A stretch of DNA of 27,501 nucleotides from a virus: positions 1 through 27,501 of IMG/VR virus record IMGVR_UViG_3300020731_000070; one strand, 5' to 3'. The position numbers and the translations under genes are program-made. The notes under the pieces are model-generated. The model was given only the letters and a program-made list of their open reading frames with translations. It did no database searches and was not told where the DNA came from. Position 1 is the stretch's first letter, and each line of letters opens with the position of its first letter. Below, piece by piece: positions 726-25,739 of the stretch.

Positions 726-736
726 AGAAATATTTT

Positions 737-747
737 ACACAAATATA
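737..747 (-). promoter_or_regulatory. Bacteroidota -7 box TATATTTG for the 180-aa gene
   Basis: The minus strand reads TATATTTGTGT here, matching TAnnTTTG. It ends 14 nt before the ATG, giving a leader of only about 9 nt. A good TTG at -33 is not present at the 19-nt spacing, so promoter strength is uncertain. The surrounding 19 bp (729-747) are identical to 17192-17210, upstream of the 229-residue adaptor gene. Confidence 0.5.
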
Positions 748-752
748 CTAAA

Positions 753-1083
753 ATAATCGGTTAGGTACATATCAGGTTTTATATCCAAGGAAAAGTATTC
801 ACTGGATTTTCAACTACTTTATTTACAACTTGTAGTATCATAGCCTTTCAATGCGCCCCATATCCTAAGGGTATATCAGTTTAATACTTAGTTTCCTTGT
901 CGGCAGTCGTCAACCTGTAAGACGTTGCTACCACTTTTACTGATATATATGTCTCCACTTATTTAAAAGGTCGGCTATTCAGCTCCCGAAAATATAAGTG
1001 TTAAGCACCAAAGACAGCAAACTTTCATTTAGAAGGCAGTTGTGCCTTAATAGGGAAAAACGTGTTAAAACCTAACCGATTAT
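753..1083 (-). ncRNA. Putative large structured RNA, about 331 nt, closed by a 13-bp helix
   Basis: No ORF of note lies in 726-1249. The two ends of this segment are perfect complements: ATAATCGGTTAGG at 753-765 and CCTAACCGATTAT at 1071-1083. Nested helices are visible inside: 1033-1038 with 1043-1048 (6 bp, 4-nt loop), 956-962 with 994-1000 (7 bp), 872-880 with 939-947 (9 bp), 908-911 with 921-924 (4 bp), 813-817 with 832-836 (5 bp) and 783-787 with 803-807 (5 bp). The stretch 865-869 can pair with 887-891 across one strand of the 9-bp helix, which would make a pseudoknot. I assign the minus strand because a terminator just upstream ends the previous unit and all genes run this way; the helices themselves do not prove the strand. 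It does not match tmRNA, RNase P or group I intron signatures that I know. Confidence 0.5.
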
Positions 1084-1088
1084 GGGAA

Positions 1089-1121
1089 ATAAAAAACCCA
1101 CCAAATGAGAGTTGATGGGTT
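1089..1121 (-). terminator. Intrinsic terminator after the ejection-protein block
   Basis: On the minus strand AACCCA (1121-1116) pairs with TGGGTT (1100-1095). After one mismatch CAA/TTG adds 3 bp (1114-1112 with 1104-1102), leaving a 7-nt loop CTCTCAT. A T-rich tract follows (T6 opposite 1096-1091). It lies 130 bp past the stop of the 1263-residue gene. Its loop is exactly complementary to the loop of an upstream hairpin at 1185-1213. Confidence 0.75.
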
Positions 1122-1213
1122 GATTAAAACACTTCCATTGGAAGCAGAACAATAATACTGAGACTATTGCGGGGATTATTCAACCCGATAACGTACTCTC
1201 ATTACCTTATCGG
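1095..1213 (-). ncRNA. Three-hairpin 3' element with complementary loops
   Basis: In transcript order, hairpin 1 (1213-1185) has a 7-bp stem CCGATAA/TTATCGG, a mismatch, then GTA/TAC and a 7-nt loop ATGAGAG. Hairpin 2 (1168-1154) has stem AATA/TATT and a 7-nt loop GTCTCAG. Hairpin 3 is the terminator with 7-nt loop CTCTCAT. Loop 1 is fully complementary to loop 3 (7 bp) and also to TCTCA of loop 2 (5 bp). A small 5-bp hairpin CTTCC/GGAAG lies between hairpins 2 and 3 (about 1131-1143). The design suggests a kissing-loop fold or a switch affecting termination or 3'-end stability. Function is inference. Confidence 0.5.
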
Positions 1214-1249
1214 ATTTGCAATACAAAATTAGTAATTATTTTTAAATTA

Positions 1250-4200
1250 TCAAAACTTGTTTTTACTTATTTTATTTTTTTTATTGTCTTCTTCTAAGGC
1301 TGTATTAACTACTCTTTCAGCTAAATTTTGCATAGGGATGGCATATCCATTAAGCATTAACACAAACTGTAAGGTAGAAATACTTGTTTTTAAGGCTAAA
1401 TAAGTATCCTTTTCTTTATCTGGAACTTCATTAGGAGATTTAGTTAAAAGCTTACCAGCAGCTTCCATACCACCAGCAAGGTCAACTATACTAGAACTAA
1501 CCTCAGACAAGGCAGCAACATTCTGTAATAACAAATGGTCTATTTCTTTTTGAGAAGTAACCTTACTTACAGCCGCTCCTCTCTTTGTTTCTAACTTAGG
1601 AATCTTATGATAAGTAATATTATTCATGATATTTTCAGACCAATCCATTATCTGAGCATTCTCCTTCGGAGTAAGCACCTTATCAGCCCAATTTGAATTA
1701 GCGGCATAGTAAGCTGATGTAGCTAATCCATCTGCCATTGCTCTACCTAATGAACCATATTGGCTAAAGGCAAGCTGACCCATGTTAGCTATTAATTCTT
1801 GAGCTGCTCCTTGTTTGTCAAACTTAGACATTAATTGGTCCTTATAGTAATCAGCTGAACTGTCATCCTTACCTACTGATTTAGCAATAGCTAATTGTTG
1901 TAAATAACTTGTTACGTTGTTTAAATATCCCATCATAGTGATACCAGCCATAATACCTAATGGCTTAGATAATTCGCTTACTGCTCCAACATCACCTTTA
2001 GCTGCTCTATCTTTAAAATCTTTCATACCTTTTATGAATGATTCATACTCTCTATTAGTATAACCTCCAACGAATCCAACAATTTTACCAATCGTACCAG
2101 AAGCTTCTATTTGTCCAAAAGGGACTGCTACAGTTCTTCTTCTTGCTCCAGTAGTAGTAGCACCTATGATTTCTTCTGTTTCTTGGTCAGCAATTGAACC
2201 AGCATCATTTAATGCTTTCTTAAATTTATTTCTATAAGAAGCATCGCTGATAAATTTATTACCATCGAAATTCTCTCCAGTAATTTCCTTGAATGAATCT
2301 CTAAACGTAGGCATCCAAATCATGTTATTAAAATGAGCCTCGGTAAATCCACTCAACCATTTTGCACCTTCTTGTAACCATCCATGTCCAGTAGTTACTT
2401 TACCAGTATCAATATCAAAGTTTGCATTAATATTCTCCTTGATTCTTATTGGACTTTTTGTAAACTCTTTAACTGCATCTGATATTTTATTTCCTTTAAA
2501 TACCTCAGCATAACCCTGGAATCCAGTTTTACCTCTTATAGGATATGTTACAAATCCAACAGCCGCTTCCTTGAATGCTCTAATTGGGTCAAAGAATATT
2601 TTAACAGAAGTAGCTGATAATAGCTTATCTACAAACTTCTGTCCAGCATCAGACTTAACACCTTGTAATTGAGATTTTAATCTTTCACCAAGCTCTTGTT
2701 CTGTAGCTATTAAAACATCTTTATTTTCAGGTCTTAATAGCTCTAGGTTTGTATTAATAACTTTTCTTGCCTGACTAAGCATCTTTGTTAAATGATAATC
2801 CTCAAATGTATTCTTAGCAGCGGTATTCATTAGGTAACCAAAATCTGTCATAGGTAAATCAGACTTCATTACATCCTTTATAATACGTTCTTTACCAAAT
2901 GGACTAGCTATTCTAAGAGGAGTCTTACCAACCTCAGATGCTGCTGTTGGAATTACCTTGTCCTTATAATACATTCTAGGCATATAAAAAGGAACCTTCT
3001 CAAGACTCTTACCTCTCAAGCTATTAGCATACTCTTGTTTATCTGTTACATTATTTTCAAATAAATTTGTAACAGCATCTAATGCAGCTCTTTGTTCTTT
3101 GGTTAAATATTTATCTCCTCCGTTTATAAAATCGTTATACACATCCTCTAAGTCAACCATTCCATCAGCACCTTTTGGTATTGATTCGTAAGCATCTTTC
3201 ATTCTTGTTTCAGTATCCTTATATCCTAATAATTTCTTAAAGTTAGATACCTTATCTGGGATGCTTCTTGTTTTATCTTTATTATTTAATTTCAAGCCAA
3301 ACTCATCTACAGTACCTACATCTTTAATGTTCTTATATCTCTCATCAAACTTTTTAGAATACTCTTGAAGATAATGTACAATCATACCCATTTTATGGGA
3401 GTCCTGGTTCTCTATTTTGTTTGCCTTGAATATATCAGCAACTGCCTTACCAAAATCCTTTGAATCTTTTGTGTAATCAGCAAGACCTTTATTGAAAGGA
3501 GATATAAGTTTTAACCAAAAATCATTACCTAATTTATTTGCTTTTATTCCTAACTTACTAGCCCAATATGTAATGTCTGTTTTAGCTAATTTTTTAGCTG
3601 CTGCAGATACTGTAGTTTCTTTTAAACCACTTAATTCATCAGCTATACCAGTTGAGTTTTTAGCCTCAAGAGATGTAACAACATCATGAAATTTAGCGAC
3701 ATCTATATAGCCATCATTAGCAACCCCCATAGCCTCATTTAATACATATAAATCTTCTATTGATAAAGATTTTAAATCCTCATCTGATAAACTATTTATT
3801 TGGTCAATAAGTTCTTTTTGCTCTGGCGTTACTTCGTAATCTGGTTCTATCTTGTTGCCTCTTATATCATTGATGAAATCATCTTTTATCTTAGATATTT
3901 GGTCCTTATATTTTTCTTCAAACTTAGATTGCTCAAAAGCAACACTACTTGCTATGTCATCATATTCCTCTTGAGTTATATCCTCATTTTCTAATAGCTG
4001 ATTAAGTCTTCTTTTAAGCTTGTTTGTATCACCTATTATTTTTACATAATCCTCTATTGTTTCAACCTTGTTATTATGTATGTCATTTAATAAATCTAAT
4101 GCTTGTTCTGATGTTTTTACATTATCAAAAACCTTATCCTCTTTTGATTCAGCTTTTATTCTTTCAATGTCAGCAGACATTTCAACCATTAATCTAGGAT

Positions 4201-5041
4201 TAGGAACCTTACCAGTTAATAAGTCTAATGCTTGCTTATACTTAGTAAGCATATCTAATGGTAGGTCTTCTGGATTAATGCTTGTAAATGATTTTATTTG
4301 AGCACTTAATGGAGACTTATTTCCTTTAGCTGATTTTTGCATTTTTTTAATGTCAGACATCTCATTTGCATAATCAGCTCTTTCTACAACCTTATCTACA
4401 TAGTCAGAAAATCTTTTGAATGCAGCCTCACTTGTCCCAACCTTAGCAGCCTTTCTAGCTATTGTTTGAGCTTGTATATTATCAATCTTCCCTTTATCTG
4501 TTAGTTCAGCAAGATATTCAGATACCCTAGCAGCAAATTCTTTTTGATAGCTTTTCTCTTCTGCTCTACCTTCTTTTCTGCCAGCCTTCTTACCTTCTAT
4601 TTCTCCTGCTAATTTACCCTCAGCTTCTTTAAATCTTCCTTCGTATTCTAACTCTTTAATTCTATCCTTATATTCAGCCTCGCTAATTTTATTCTCCTCA
4701 AGTTGTTTTTTAAGCTTGCTGATTTCTTTAGCCATATCTCTTCCTTGAGACATTTGACCAGCAAGTAATCCTTCTTGAAAACCTCTTTTAATATTCTTTT
4801 TGAAATCGTTAAATACCTTTTTTAATCCTTTCTTAACTATGTTTTTTTCTTTTGGAAATAAAATATCAAAAGCCTGTTCTGGAGTAGGAATTAATCCTTT
4901 GCTTTCAGGTTTATTTGCATGTTCATCAAATGCAACAAAAGCCCATGTCTCAACGTCATTGTCGCTAAGATTAGGTTTCTTTTCTTTAATACCTTCTTTT
5001 AATTTTTCCCACTCTGGGCCAAAAGGACATAATTCTGCCAT
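1250..5041 (-). CDS. Large internal virion / ejection-type protein (1263 aa)
   Basis: This soluble, mostly helical, Lys/Glu-rich protein is the largest of the four following the nozzle gene. Residues about 90-170 form a charged coiled coil with repeated short Glu/Lys motifs (KLKKQLEENK, RIKELEYEG). A segment near 195-235 (QTIARKAAKVGTSEAAFKRF) resembles a helical module found in large polyvalent phage proteins. The C-terminal half has Gly/Ala-rich stretches with weakly hydrophobic segments (GIMAGITMMGYLNN) typical of proteins that cross the host envelope during DNA ejection. Position, size and composition resemble T7 gp16-like internal proteins, but I see no lytic transglycosylase or protease motif. 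Its start is 1 nt from the stop of the 50-residue gene upstream. Confidence 0.65.
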   Translation of the reverse strand: MAELCPFGPEWEKLKEGIKEKKPNLSDNDVETWAFVAFDEHANKPESKGLIPTPEQAFDILFPKEKNIVKKGLKKVFNDFKKNIKRGFQEGLLAGQMSQGRDMAKEISKLKKQLEENKISEAEYKDRIKELEYEGRFKEAEGKLAGEIEGKKAGRKEGRAEEKSYQKEFAARVSEYLAELTDKGKIDNIQAQTIARKAAKVGTSEAAFKRFSDYVDKVVERADYANEMSDIKKMQKSAKGNKSPLSAQIKSFTSINPEDLPLDMLTKYKQALDLLTGKVPNPRLMVEMSADIERIKAESKEDKVFDNVKTSEQALDLLNDIHNNKVETIEDYVKIIGDTNKLKRRLNQLLENEDITQEEYDDIASSVAFEQSKFEEKYKDQISKIKDDFINDIRGNKIEPDYEVTPEQKELIDQINSLSDEDLKSLSIEDLYVLNEAMGVANDGYIDVAKFHDVVTSLEAKNSTGIADELSGLKETTVSAAAKKLAKTDITYWASKLGIKANKLGNDFWLKLISPFNKGLADYTKDSKDFGKAVADIFKANKIENQDSHKMGMIVHYLQEYSKKFDERYKNIKDVGTVDEFGLKLNNKDKTRSIPDKVSNFKKLLGYKDTETRMKDAYESIPKGADGMVDLEDVYNDFINGGDKYLTKEQRAALDAVTNLFENNVTDKQEYANSLRGKSLEKVPFYMPRMYYKDKVIPTAASEVGKTPLRIASPFGKERIIKDVMKSDLPMTDFGYLMNTAAKNTFEDYHLTKMLSQARKVINTNLELLRPENKDVLIATEQELGERLKSQLQGVKSDAGQKFVDKLLSATSVKIFFDPIRAFKEAAVGFVTYPIRGKTGFQGYAEVFKGNKISDAVKEFTKSPIRIKENINANFDIDTGKVTTGHGWLQEGAKWLSGFTEAHFNNMIWMPTFRDSFKEITGENFDGNKFISDASYRNKFKKALNDAGSIADQETEEIIGATTTGARRRTVAVPFGQIEASGTIGKIVGFVGGYTNREYESFIKGMKDFKDRAAKGDVGAVSELSKPLGIMAGITMMGYLNNVTSYLQQLAIAKSVGKDDSSADYYKDQLMSKFDKQGAAQELIANMGQLAFSQYGSLGRAMADGLATSAYYAANSNWADKVLTPKENAQIMDWSENIMNNITYHKIPKLETKRGAAVSKVTSQKEIDHLLLQNVAALSEVSSSIVDLAGGMEAAGKLLTKSPNEVPDKEKDTYLALKTSISTLQFVLMLNGYAIPMQNLAERVVNTALEEDNKKNKISKNKF

Positions 5042-15869: not shown

Positions 15870-16499
15870 TTAGCTTTCAACGCCATCTGAAACATGGTCT
15901 TGTTTAATATTTTTACGAGCCATAATTCTTTGTGTAACTATATCAAACACCATACCTATTGCATCAGGAGGCACATTAATAGGAGCACTTAAATTATTAG
16001 TTACATGTGTAGCCATTCTCACACTAACCTTTGTACCTGCAGGCAATAATGATTTAACCCACATATATAATGTAGAACCTTCAATCCAATAATAAGCTGC
16101 CTTAGGAAGATGCGGCATGTCTCTAAAGTAATCTATTTCATTTCCTGAAACATAAAGAACTGGTCTGCTTTGACCTTTAAGTCCTGTAAAGAATACAGAA
16201 TTAACCCCACTACTATTAGGAAGCCCTAATGGAGGGTGAGGAATAGAAGTATAATAGTATCCTGTATCAGCATCTCTTGTAAAAGATGTTATTTTAAAGG
16301 TAGTTAAATAACCATCAGGAACAGATAAAATTCCTTCAACAGCATAAGCATCATTAGCCTGTTTAGTGGCAACCTGTGCTACTGCATCATTAATATGTAA
16401 TAATAATTCATTATCCGTTAATACTGCTGCATCATCTGGATAATCATTATAGTATTGACGCCTAATCCTGTCAATCATTTGTTGAGTAGTAACAATCAT
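15870..16499 (-). CDS. Tail ring / tubular-type protein (209 aa)
   Basis: The N-terminal helix (MIVTTQQMIDRIRRQYYNDY) and the segment LTDNELLLHINDAVAQVATK fit the helical N-terminal part of T7 gp11-like tubular or adaptor proteins. A beta-rich middle follows (GYLTTFKITSF, SRPVLYVSGNEIDYF, YYWIEGSTLYMWV). The stop codon overlaps the start of this gene's upstream neighbour region by one base with the 229-residue gene, showing tight coupling. No enzymatic motif is seen. It probably belongs to the neck between portal and nozzle. Confidence 0.6.
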   Translation of the reverse strand: MIVTTQQMIDRIRRQYYNDYPDDAAVLTDNELLLHINDAVAQVATKQANDAYAVEGILSVPDGYLTTFKITSFTRDADTGYYYTSIPHPPLGLPNSSGVNSVFFTGLKGQSRPVLYVSGNEIDYFRDMPHLPKAAYYWIEGSTLYMWVKSLLPAGTKVSVRMATHVTNNLSAPINVPPDAIGMVFDIVTQRIMARKNIKQDHVSDGVES

Positions 16500-17188
16500 T
16501 ATTCTCCAGTATTAATAACTCCTTGCCCAAATTGAGTTAGAGTTGGTTCTTTAAATGAAACTCCAATTATTTTAGCTGCTCTTGCAACAATTTCATCAAT
16601 ATCATTATTGTACCATAATGGGTCAACACTTCCTGTTGAATTATATACAGGTCTACCATTACCATCTGTTGTGTAATTCCAAACAACATCTGTAGGTACA
16701 GTTAAATATTTTAAGGTAATATTTGTTAAGGTATTTGGATATATTCTCCAGTTTGTATTTTGTTCTACAAAGAACGCATTTGCCTCATTAATTGGGTCAA
16801 TAGAATCCTGAATACGCTCAGCATATCTATTTTCTTCAAGTCTATATATTCTATAAATATTATCGGTATACATACCAATAAGCTTATTAAAACCTGTTGG
16901 TTTTGTTCCTAATAAAGTTCCAGATGTCAATGTAAGGCCAGAACCAATAGTCAACACAGCTGATTGTTCAAATGGCATTAATCTAGAAACCACATTATCT
17001 GTCATAGATAAACCTACTCTTGGAACAGGTCTTCCATACTGATATTGTTCTACACGACCAACTAAAAAATCATAATAATTTCTTTGAGCCGTATTAAAAG
17101 CGTATTGAAAATCTGCAGGGCTTAAACTTCCTAGCTGATTCTTTCTAACAATAAATCTAAGTATGGAATATACTTGGTCGACAGTCAT
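16499..17188 (-). CDS. Head-tail adaptor-type protein (229 aa)
   Basis: The first 45 residues are helical (MTVDQVYSILRFIVRKNQLG, SPADFQYAFNTAQRNYYDFL), then strands dominate, and a helical tail (DEIVARAAKIIGVSFKEP) ends the protein. This layout, size and place right after the capsid region are those of adaptor proteins that bind the portal ring. It starts a new unit: a terminator and a TATATTTGTGT box lie in the gap just upstream, with only 11-14 nt between box and start. It shares one base with the next gene. Confidence 0.6.
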   Translation of the reverse strand: MTVDQVYSILRFIVRKNQLGSLSPADFQYAFNTAQRNYYDFLVGRVEQYQYGRPVPRVGLSMTDNVVSRLMPFEQSAVLTIGSGLTLTSGTLLGTKPTGFNKLIGMYTDNIYRIYRLEENRYAERIQDSIDPINEANAFFVEQNTNWRIYPNTLTNITLKYLTVPTDVVWNYTTDGNGRPVYNSTGSVDPLWYNNDIDEIVARAAKIIGVSFKEPTLTQFGQGVINTGE

Positions 17189-17199
17189 CGGAATATTTT

Positions 17200-17210
17200 A
17201 CACAAATATA
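17200..17210 (-). promoter_or_regulatory. TATATTTG box for the adaptor/nozzle operon
   Basis: The minus strand reads TATATTTGTGT, a match to TAnnTTTG, immediately after the T-tract of the preceding terminator. The 19 bp 17192-17210 are identical to 729-747. The best upstream TTG is at a 14-nt spacing, shorter than the usual 17-19, so the -33 element is weak. Confidence 0.5.
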
Positions 17211-17212
17211 AC

Positions 17213-17242
17213 AAAAAAGCCCCACAATAGAAATTGTAGGGC
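17213..17242 (-). terminator. Intrinsic terminator after the 303-aa gene
   Basis: On the minus strand GCCCTACAAT (17242-17233) pairs with ATTGTGGGGC (17228-17219), 10 bp including one G-T wobble, with loop TTCT and a T6 tract (17218-17213). It lies about 30 bp after the stop of the 303-residue gene. Confidence 0.9.
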
Positions 17243-25654: not shown

Positions 25655-25668
25655 GTCTTTGTGTTTGC

Positions 25669-25739
25669 ACCGATTATTAGAATCGAACTAATGCCTTTGG
25701 TTTTGGAGACCAATATTCTACCCCTAAACTAAATCGGAT
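25669..25739 (-). tRNA. tRNA-Trp (anticodon CCA), 71 nt
   Basis: In order on the minus strand: acceptor CCGATT paired with AATCGG (6 bp; position 1-72 reads T-T), TA at 8-9, D-arm GTTT/GAAT with loop containing AGGGGTA, anticodon stem TTGGT/ACCAA with loop CTCCAAA (anticodon CCA), a 4-nt variable loop AGGC, and T-arm ATTAG/CTAAT with loop TTCGATT. The discriminator base is G. The 3' CCA is not encoded (GCAA follows). It lies between two genes and is probably processed from their mRNA. Confidence 0.85.

Follow-up and report, generated by a model that had tools for sequence, protein, structure and literature searches.

A conserved, pseudoknotted RNA structure with complementary, hypervariable loops in metagenomic phage contigs: a candidate for an undescribed family of stand-alone non-coding RNA genes

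To our knowledge, only few large structured RNAs have been described from phages, chiefly GOLLD and ROOL, whose functions are not known. The pRNA of phage phi29, which is 174 nt long and part of the DNA packaging motor, carries a pair of loops that are complementary to each other and vary from phage to phage. In the fold of purine-type riboswitches, kissing loops hold two adjacent hairpins together beside a third helix. GOLLD contains a conserved and a variable region, and copies of GOLLD and of ROOL are joined by kissing loops (PMC12286853). In the attenuators of pT181-type plasmids kissing hairpins take part in control, the loop together with the stem setting the specificity (PMC3753616).

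The window (the whole stretch of DNA analysed here) is a virus record of 27.5 kb with its long ORFs on the minus strand, among which a portal protein and further virion-structure proteins were found by matches; the nearest named relatives of the portal, at less than 30% identity, are mostly from phages of Flavobacteriia. The RNA that it appears to encode shares with phi29 pRNA two mutually complementary, phage-specific loops but differs from it in size and structure. With the fold of purine-type riboswitches it shares paired hairpins, here predicted to kiss, beside a third helix; unlike in these riboswitches the loop sequences are not conserved, the downstream genes are unrelated and a conserved junction of the ligand-binding type was not identified. 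Like GOLLD and ROOL it would be a phage-encoded, stand-alone, large and pseudoknotted RNA of unknown function with loop-loop contacts, and like GOLLD it combines a conserved with a variable region (PMC12286853). It differs from both in having no sequence or Rfam match to them, in size (450–480 nt vs. 659 nt for ROOL env-120 and more than 800 nt for GOLLD members), in that its complementary loops are hypervariable and lie inside a terminator-like 5′ module, and in the lack of an adjacent tRNA, the nearest in the window being a tRNA-Trp gene at a distance of about 24 kb. With the pT181 attenuators it has in common kissing hairpins (the kiss being a prediction here) beside a terminator and, putatively, a loop sequence that is part of a specificity code (PMC3753616), but both loops are on one transcript, with a large structured RNA rather than a rep mRNA downstream of them.

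At the gathering score no Rfam family matches the RNA region, and a permissive Rfam search with positions 700–1300 and with L004–L008 (L-numbers are our labels for the homologous loci or records found) gave only chance-level matches to unrelated families. The Rfam covariance models of GOLLD, ROOL and OLE do not match, and Rfam likewise gave no match to the catalytic core that is conserved in group I introns or in RNase P; tRNA-like ends with a tag ORF, or a match by ARAGORN or Rfam, as for tmRNA, were likewise not found. An earlier note on this DNA had set these last three RNAs aside from the sequence. ARAGORN finds no tRNA cloverleaf within the RNA. A riboswitch is not indicated either, the downstream genes being unrelated and Rfam riboswitch matches absent. 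Literature searches (phage, Bacteroidetes, Flavobacterium, Cellulophaga) yielded no description of the RNA.

The earlier note had proposed that a gene-free segment of 331 nt (753–1083) is an undescribed large structured RNA. The gene-free stretch extends from 726 to 1249, between the minus-strand ORFs 183–725 and 1250–5041; the longest sense ORF within the RNA has 17 aa and no ORF is conserved among the members, in agreement with the note. (A 60-aa ORF inside the RNA of L066 and L089 was discarded, since it is absent at that length from the other members examined.) On both strands the predicted fold of the 331 nt is more stable than those of dinucleotide-shuffled versions (z = −3.97 for the plus and −3.13 for the minus strand; 0 of 100 shuffles each), which, taken alone, is weak evidence.

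Upstream lies a putative promoter (1224–1255, minus strand) with a −33 box TTTTGA (1250–1255), overlapping the stop codon of ORF 1250–5041, and a −7 box TAATTTTG (1224–1231). The pattern TTTG-N18-20-TAnnTTTG, which we take to be the Bacteroidota-type promoter consensus, is present, exact or one base off, in 22 of 23 distinct upstream regions at a constant distance from the RNA start; some members have a −7 box with one deviating base, and L025 has a weak −33 box. The promoter type and the protein relatives suggest that the hosts of the carriers are Bacteroidota. From the upstream promoter, the polarity of the terminator, the direction of the genes and the G-U pairs we place the RNA on the minus strand; a plus-strand RNA was rejected, since the promoter, the U-run and the G-U pairs all agree with the other strand. 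The unit would be read from 1219, near which the start probably lies, to 753, giving about 450–480 nt. The segment of the earlier note is genuinely structured, but on this comparison is just the 3′ domain of the larger RNA.

This 3′ domain of type A (753–1083, minus strand, 3′ end approximate) contains the helices Pa (1071–1074/1051–1054) and Pb (1044–1048/1033–1037), helices 1 and 2 of an alignment of 13 sequences, and helix Pc (1005–1015/843–854), which closes the core and shows compensatory changes in 8 of its 11 pairs. Within the core are the hairpin CACTTAT/ATAAGTG (994–1000/956–962), present with 7–8 bp and differing sequences in 9 of 9 members examined; helix Pd (940–947/872–879), 100% paired and with compensatory changes in 6 of 8 pairs; hairpin Pe (928–933/901–906 and 921–924/908–911), formed by the near-invariant GTGGTAGCAAYGTCTTA...GACAACTGCCG (helices 5 and 6 of the alignment); and hairpin Pf (869–871/857–859, helix 8). 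Hairpin Pg (832–836/813–817) is helix 9. A pseudoknot is formed by CAAGGAAA (892–899) with TTTCCTTG (786–793); it is 100% paired, and one of its positions is G-C, C-G or U-A depending on the clade.

In a first alignment of nine sequences the nine helices comprise 54 pairs, which are 98.6% paired and of which 28 show compensatory change; none of 500 shuffles reached the observed number of paired cells, of double changes or the covariation score. In the second alignment, from which L025 was omitted as a near-copy of L012 and to which L110, L111, L112, L145 and L148 were added to give the 13 sequences, the 54 pairs are 95.9% paired, 28 again with compensatory change (0 of 500 shuffles). When the partner was slid by 1–3 columns, pairing fell to 34–48% in the first alignment; the slid controls of the second gave 33–48%. 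L145 and L148, found after the helices had been drawn from the nine sequences, keep 52 of the 54 pairs and bring new pair types, e.g., U-A at a pseudoknot position that is elsewhere C-G or G-C. In the clade of L088 and L110–L112 most of Pb is disrupted, and two mismatches occur in Pc. Comparison thus shows type A as a conserved secondary structure with a pseudoknot. Such covariation in homologues was what the earlier note had made the test of its proposal, and together with the lack of an Rfam match it bears out an undescribed large structured RNA. Of the pairings that the note had listed, the one of 9 bp (872–880 with 939–947) is Pd, among the best covarying helices, whereas the pseudoknot 865–869/887–891 is not conserved in the alignment by inspection, L066 and L089 lacking it, and 892–899/786–793 is supported in its stead. 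The helix of 13 bp thought to close the segment is present in the window, in fact with 14 bp, but complete only in the window's phage and broken or re-registered in the other members; its own partner (−11.9 kcal/mol) is hardly better than swapped ones (−10.4 kcal/mol), and it was dropped as a defining element.

With the downstream 180-aa protein as query five related loci were found. One of these contigs carries an identical RNA, and in the other four a different sequence replaces the 331 nt; the upstream part was matched by blastn in three of the four and is kept, by eye, in all four. Scans of viral contigs with patterns for the upstream hairpin, the core motifs of the 331-nt region and hairpin hp1 (see below) raised the number of distinct 5′ modules to 29, about half of them followed by type A and the rest by type B, an unrelated 3′ domain that occupies the place of type A in sister phages. 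That type B is a divergent homologue of type A was considered and rejected, since the type A model R2 misses it. Type B, too, shows covariation (the shuffle control covers type A only), namely in a hairpin (UGAAUGGU/ACCAUUCA, UGUAUAGU/ACUAUACA or UGACUGG/CCAGUCA), in a second hairpin GUAGUC/GGCUAC and in a domain-closing helix UAUUGGA/UCYGAUA. It has no Rfam match; a group I intron, suggested by the resemblance of its end AAGTTATAGTCC to an S element, was dropped for that reason. Further features of type B 3′ parts (e.g., L004 4682–5000) are a stretch rich in G, GGGGGAGGGGG, and, as a degenerate direct repeat, CTCATTAACTCGGTGGTAAG/AATCTATTAATCTGGTGGTAAG. In L006 (4674–4800) the 5′ module is 95% identical to that of the window, the first ~110 nt of the 3′ domain are unlike both types and the remainder is type B, so that L006 may be a recombinant or have a third kind of domain start. 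Ten records contain type A, each in a single copy; it is absent from all type B records searched, and no type B DNA was found in type A records; this mutual exclusion is provisional, since many records are fragments.

At least three neighbourhoods can be distinguished. In the first, the RNA lies in the virion-gene region before a gene of the 180-aa protein family (window, L004–L006, L009, L012, L025, L047, L091, L092; to these may be added L007 and L033, where an HNH-like ORF lies in between); in the second between the genes of the major capsid protein (Phage_capsid) and a gp6-like connector (L062, likewise L015 and L082); and in the third before an ERF recombination gene (L066, L089, L143–L146; called by Pfam on sequences from L066/L089, L143, L144 and L145 and by eye for L146). 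The position in the middle of a late operon given in the earlier note therefore applies to the window's phage group but not to the others. In view of these unrelated settings, and of portals that share as little as 40% identity between carriers, the RNA is bound to no particular gene, operon or phage genus, and its occurrence in both late (structural) and early (ERF) neighbourhoods argues for a stand-alone gene. The varied places, the domain swapping among close relatives and the HNH-like ORF after type B in L007 and L033 would also suit a mobile RNA element, intron-like or homing, inserted between genes. This we consider very improbable, as no gene is interrupted, the RNA has its own putative promoter, no record contains more than one copy of type A, and Rfam detected neither a group I intron nor any other family. 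The HNH-like ORF, of 112–116 aa and with residues resembling those of HNH endonucleases, directly follows the type B RNA (L007, ~4626–4961, plus strand; L033, 405 nt past the RNA start); that of L007 has no Pfam match. All carriers are metagenomic contigs, none being found among the isolate phages searched. In bacterial genomes from the class of Cyclobacterium (Bacteroidia) strict filters left 0 of 295, a search in which weak matches could be missed; pattern matches in bacterial genomes (L105–L108) were judged to be chance, having no model match.

The 5′ module (1087–1219, minus strand; 29 distinct homologues) extends from the putative RNA start GCAAATCC (1212–1219) to a U-run. Hairpin hp1 (1184–1214) has the stem TCCGATAA/TTATCGGG plus GTA/TAC and the loop ATGAGAG (1196–1202); in the L088/L110–L112 clade another stem is substituted. 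Helix P3 (1120–1183; TTGA/TCAA), immediately 3′ of hp1 and 5′ of hp3, encloses one or more variable hairpins (hp2). Its own partners form 3.9 bp vs. 2.0 when swapped (0 of 20,000 permutations), and its sequence is GATTCTT/AAGAATC in L088, L110 and L111. Hairpin hp3 (1087–1120) consists of ACCCATCA/TGGTGGGT with the loop CTCTCAT (1105–1111), followed by TTTTTTATTT (1087–1096). Its stem sequence varies among members with the pairing kept, and a CCC-rich stem plus U-run is present in all aligned 5′ modules, marking hp3 as a putative intrinsic terminator-like element. In every member the loop of hp1 is complementary to that of hp3 over 6–9 nt, even though the loop sequences differ among members: own loops pair over 8.3 bp on average (8.3–8.6 bp with a repeat on 25 members included) vs. 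4.3 bp when swapped, and no permutation reached the observed total (0 of 100,000; 0 of 20,000 in the repeat). In the L088 clade, where both stems differ, the loops still match (GTAGAGA/TCTCTAC in L088, TTGGAAG/CTTCCAA in L110 and TTGGACA/TGTCCAA in L111). Pairing of the RNA 5′ end with sequence past the U-run, good in many type B but weak in type A members, is not claimed; the permutations (1385 of 20,000 with G-U allowed, 13 of 20,000 with Watson-Crick pairs only) make it only marginal. That all this is an ordinary spacer between genes, in which a plain terminator is joined by fortuitous folding, is scarcely credible: hp3 does resemble a normal intrinsic terminator, but the covariation (0 of 500 shuffles), its out-of-sample confirmation and the complementary loops speak against it.

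Hp1, hp3, P3 and the loop pairing could coexist in a kissing-loop fold, or loop pairing and P3 could instead replace hp1 and hp3 as an antiterminator. In pseudoknot-free energies the terminator form is ahead by about 1–9 kcal/mol in nearly all members, and the nested alternative is favoured in L062, L088 and L111; the calculated energies of the two are thus close. The reading to which we lean, at a little short of an even chance, is that of a phage gene, independent of its neighbours, for a non-coding RNA that belongs to an undescribed family, acts in trans and is made under the control of the terminator-like 5′ module; what comparison shows of the family is the conserved pseudoknotted fold, the 5′ module with complementary loops, the promoter-like sequence at fixed distance, the exchange of A and B and the unrelated genomic places. 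Host RNA polymerase would make the RNA, the 5′ module folding during transcription such that hp1 and hp3 become neighbours at the base of P3 and form an intramolecular kissing contact through their loops. The kiss would set how often transcription stops at hp3, giving a short form of ~130 nt, or reads through to the full form of ~450–480 nt, which would fold via its pseudoknot and act in trans, most likely through binding to a protein or ribonucleoprotein of the host or the phage, or to further copies of the RNA. The U-run could also mean that the 5′ module is a plain terminated small RNA, the 3′ domain being made rarely.

For gene control only the 5′ terminator-like module is a plausible candidate. 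A cis-acting leader or attenuator, governing read-through into the downstream ORF or its translation, would make use of hp3 and of the competing nested fold, ~1–9 kcal/mol less stable in most members, and such a role is possible where short ORFs follow closely (L066, L089, L144, L145, L148). As a general account it is unlikely, for the downstream genes (180-aa protein, gp6 connector, ERF, short peptides, HNH-like ORF) are unrelated and in the window group the next gene (183–725) has its own promoter-like box TATATTTG (729–753, minus strand) at the 3′ edge of the RNA.

The loops change faster than their surroundings in four close pairs: L110/L111 (5 of 33 loop positions vs. 1 of 116 elsewhere; Fisher p = 0.002), L088/L110 (12 of 32 vs. 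3 of 116; p = 5e-7), L009/L091 (6 of 24 vs. 3 of 135; p = 4e-4) and L004/L005 (10 of 24 vs. 8 of 136; p = 2e-5), the p-values being optimistic because these pairs were chosen for differing. In all four both loops change together; among other close pairs several have identical loops. The loops might pair between RNA copies of the same phage, which would then form homo-oligomers, as GOLLD and ROOL do, or sense their own concentration through attenuation in trans. Loops that are hypervariable and yet complementary, as in L110/L111, L088/L110 and L009/L091, suit such self-recognition by a private code, for which the pT181 kissing hairpins (PMC3753616) and the kissing loops joining copies of GOLLD and ROOL (PMC12286853) are precedents. 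The identical loops of several close pairs count against it, and a contact within one molecule suffices, since P3 sets hp1 and hp3 side by side; we regard pairing between copies as possible, if on the doubtful side. Self-recognition is nevertheless the most interesting open reading, because a merely structural loop pair need not change so fast. Carried further, and with equal reserve, the loops may be a private identity code by which the RNA of each lineage recognises only its own copies, be it to build a specific RNA particle or to sense dose and attenuate the copy of an incoming relative, with the swappable A/B domain as effector.

The stand-alone gene that we favour would add to the large phage RNAs a family from phages of Bacteroidota, with a tractable size, a clear promoter and a pseudoknotted core supported by covariation. 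Its function is testable via the two-loop code, which shifts in coordinated jumps between near-identical phages, and via the natural swap of one 3′ domain for another.

Directly past the RNA of L066, L089, L144, L145 and L148 start short hydrophobic peptides of 36–49 aa that look like single-span membrane proteins. The only tRNA gene of the window is the phage's tRNA-Trp (CCA) at 25667–25738 on the minus strand. A near-identical motif of 25 nt around TATATTTG, followed by a near-palindrome, occurs on the minus strand both at 729–753 and at 17192–17216, just upstream of the genes 183–725 and 16499–17188, respectively, and is likely a phage promoter or a protein-binding box.
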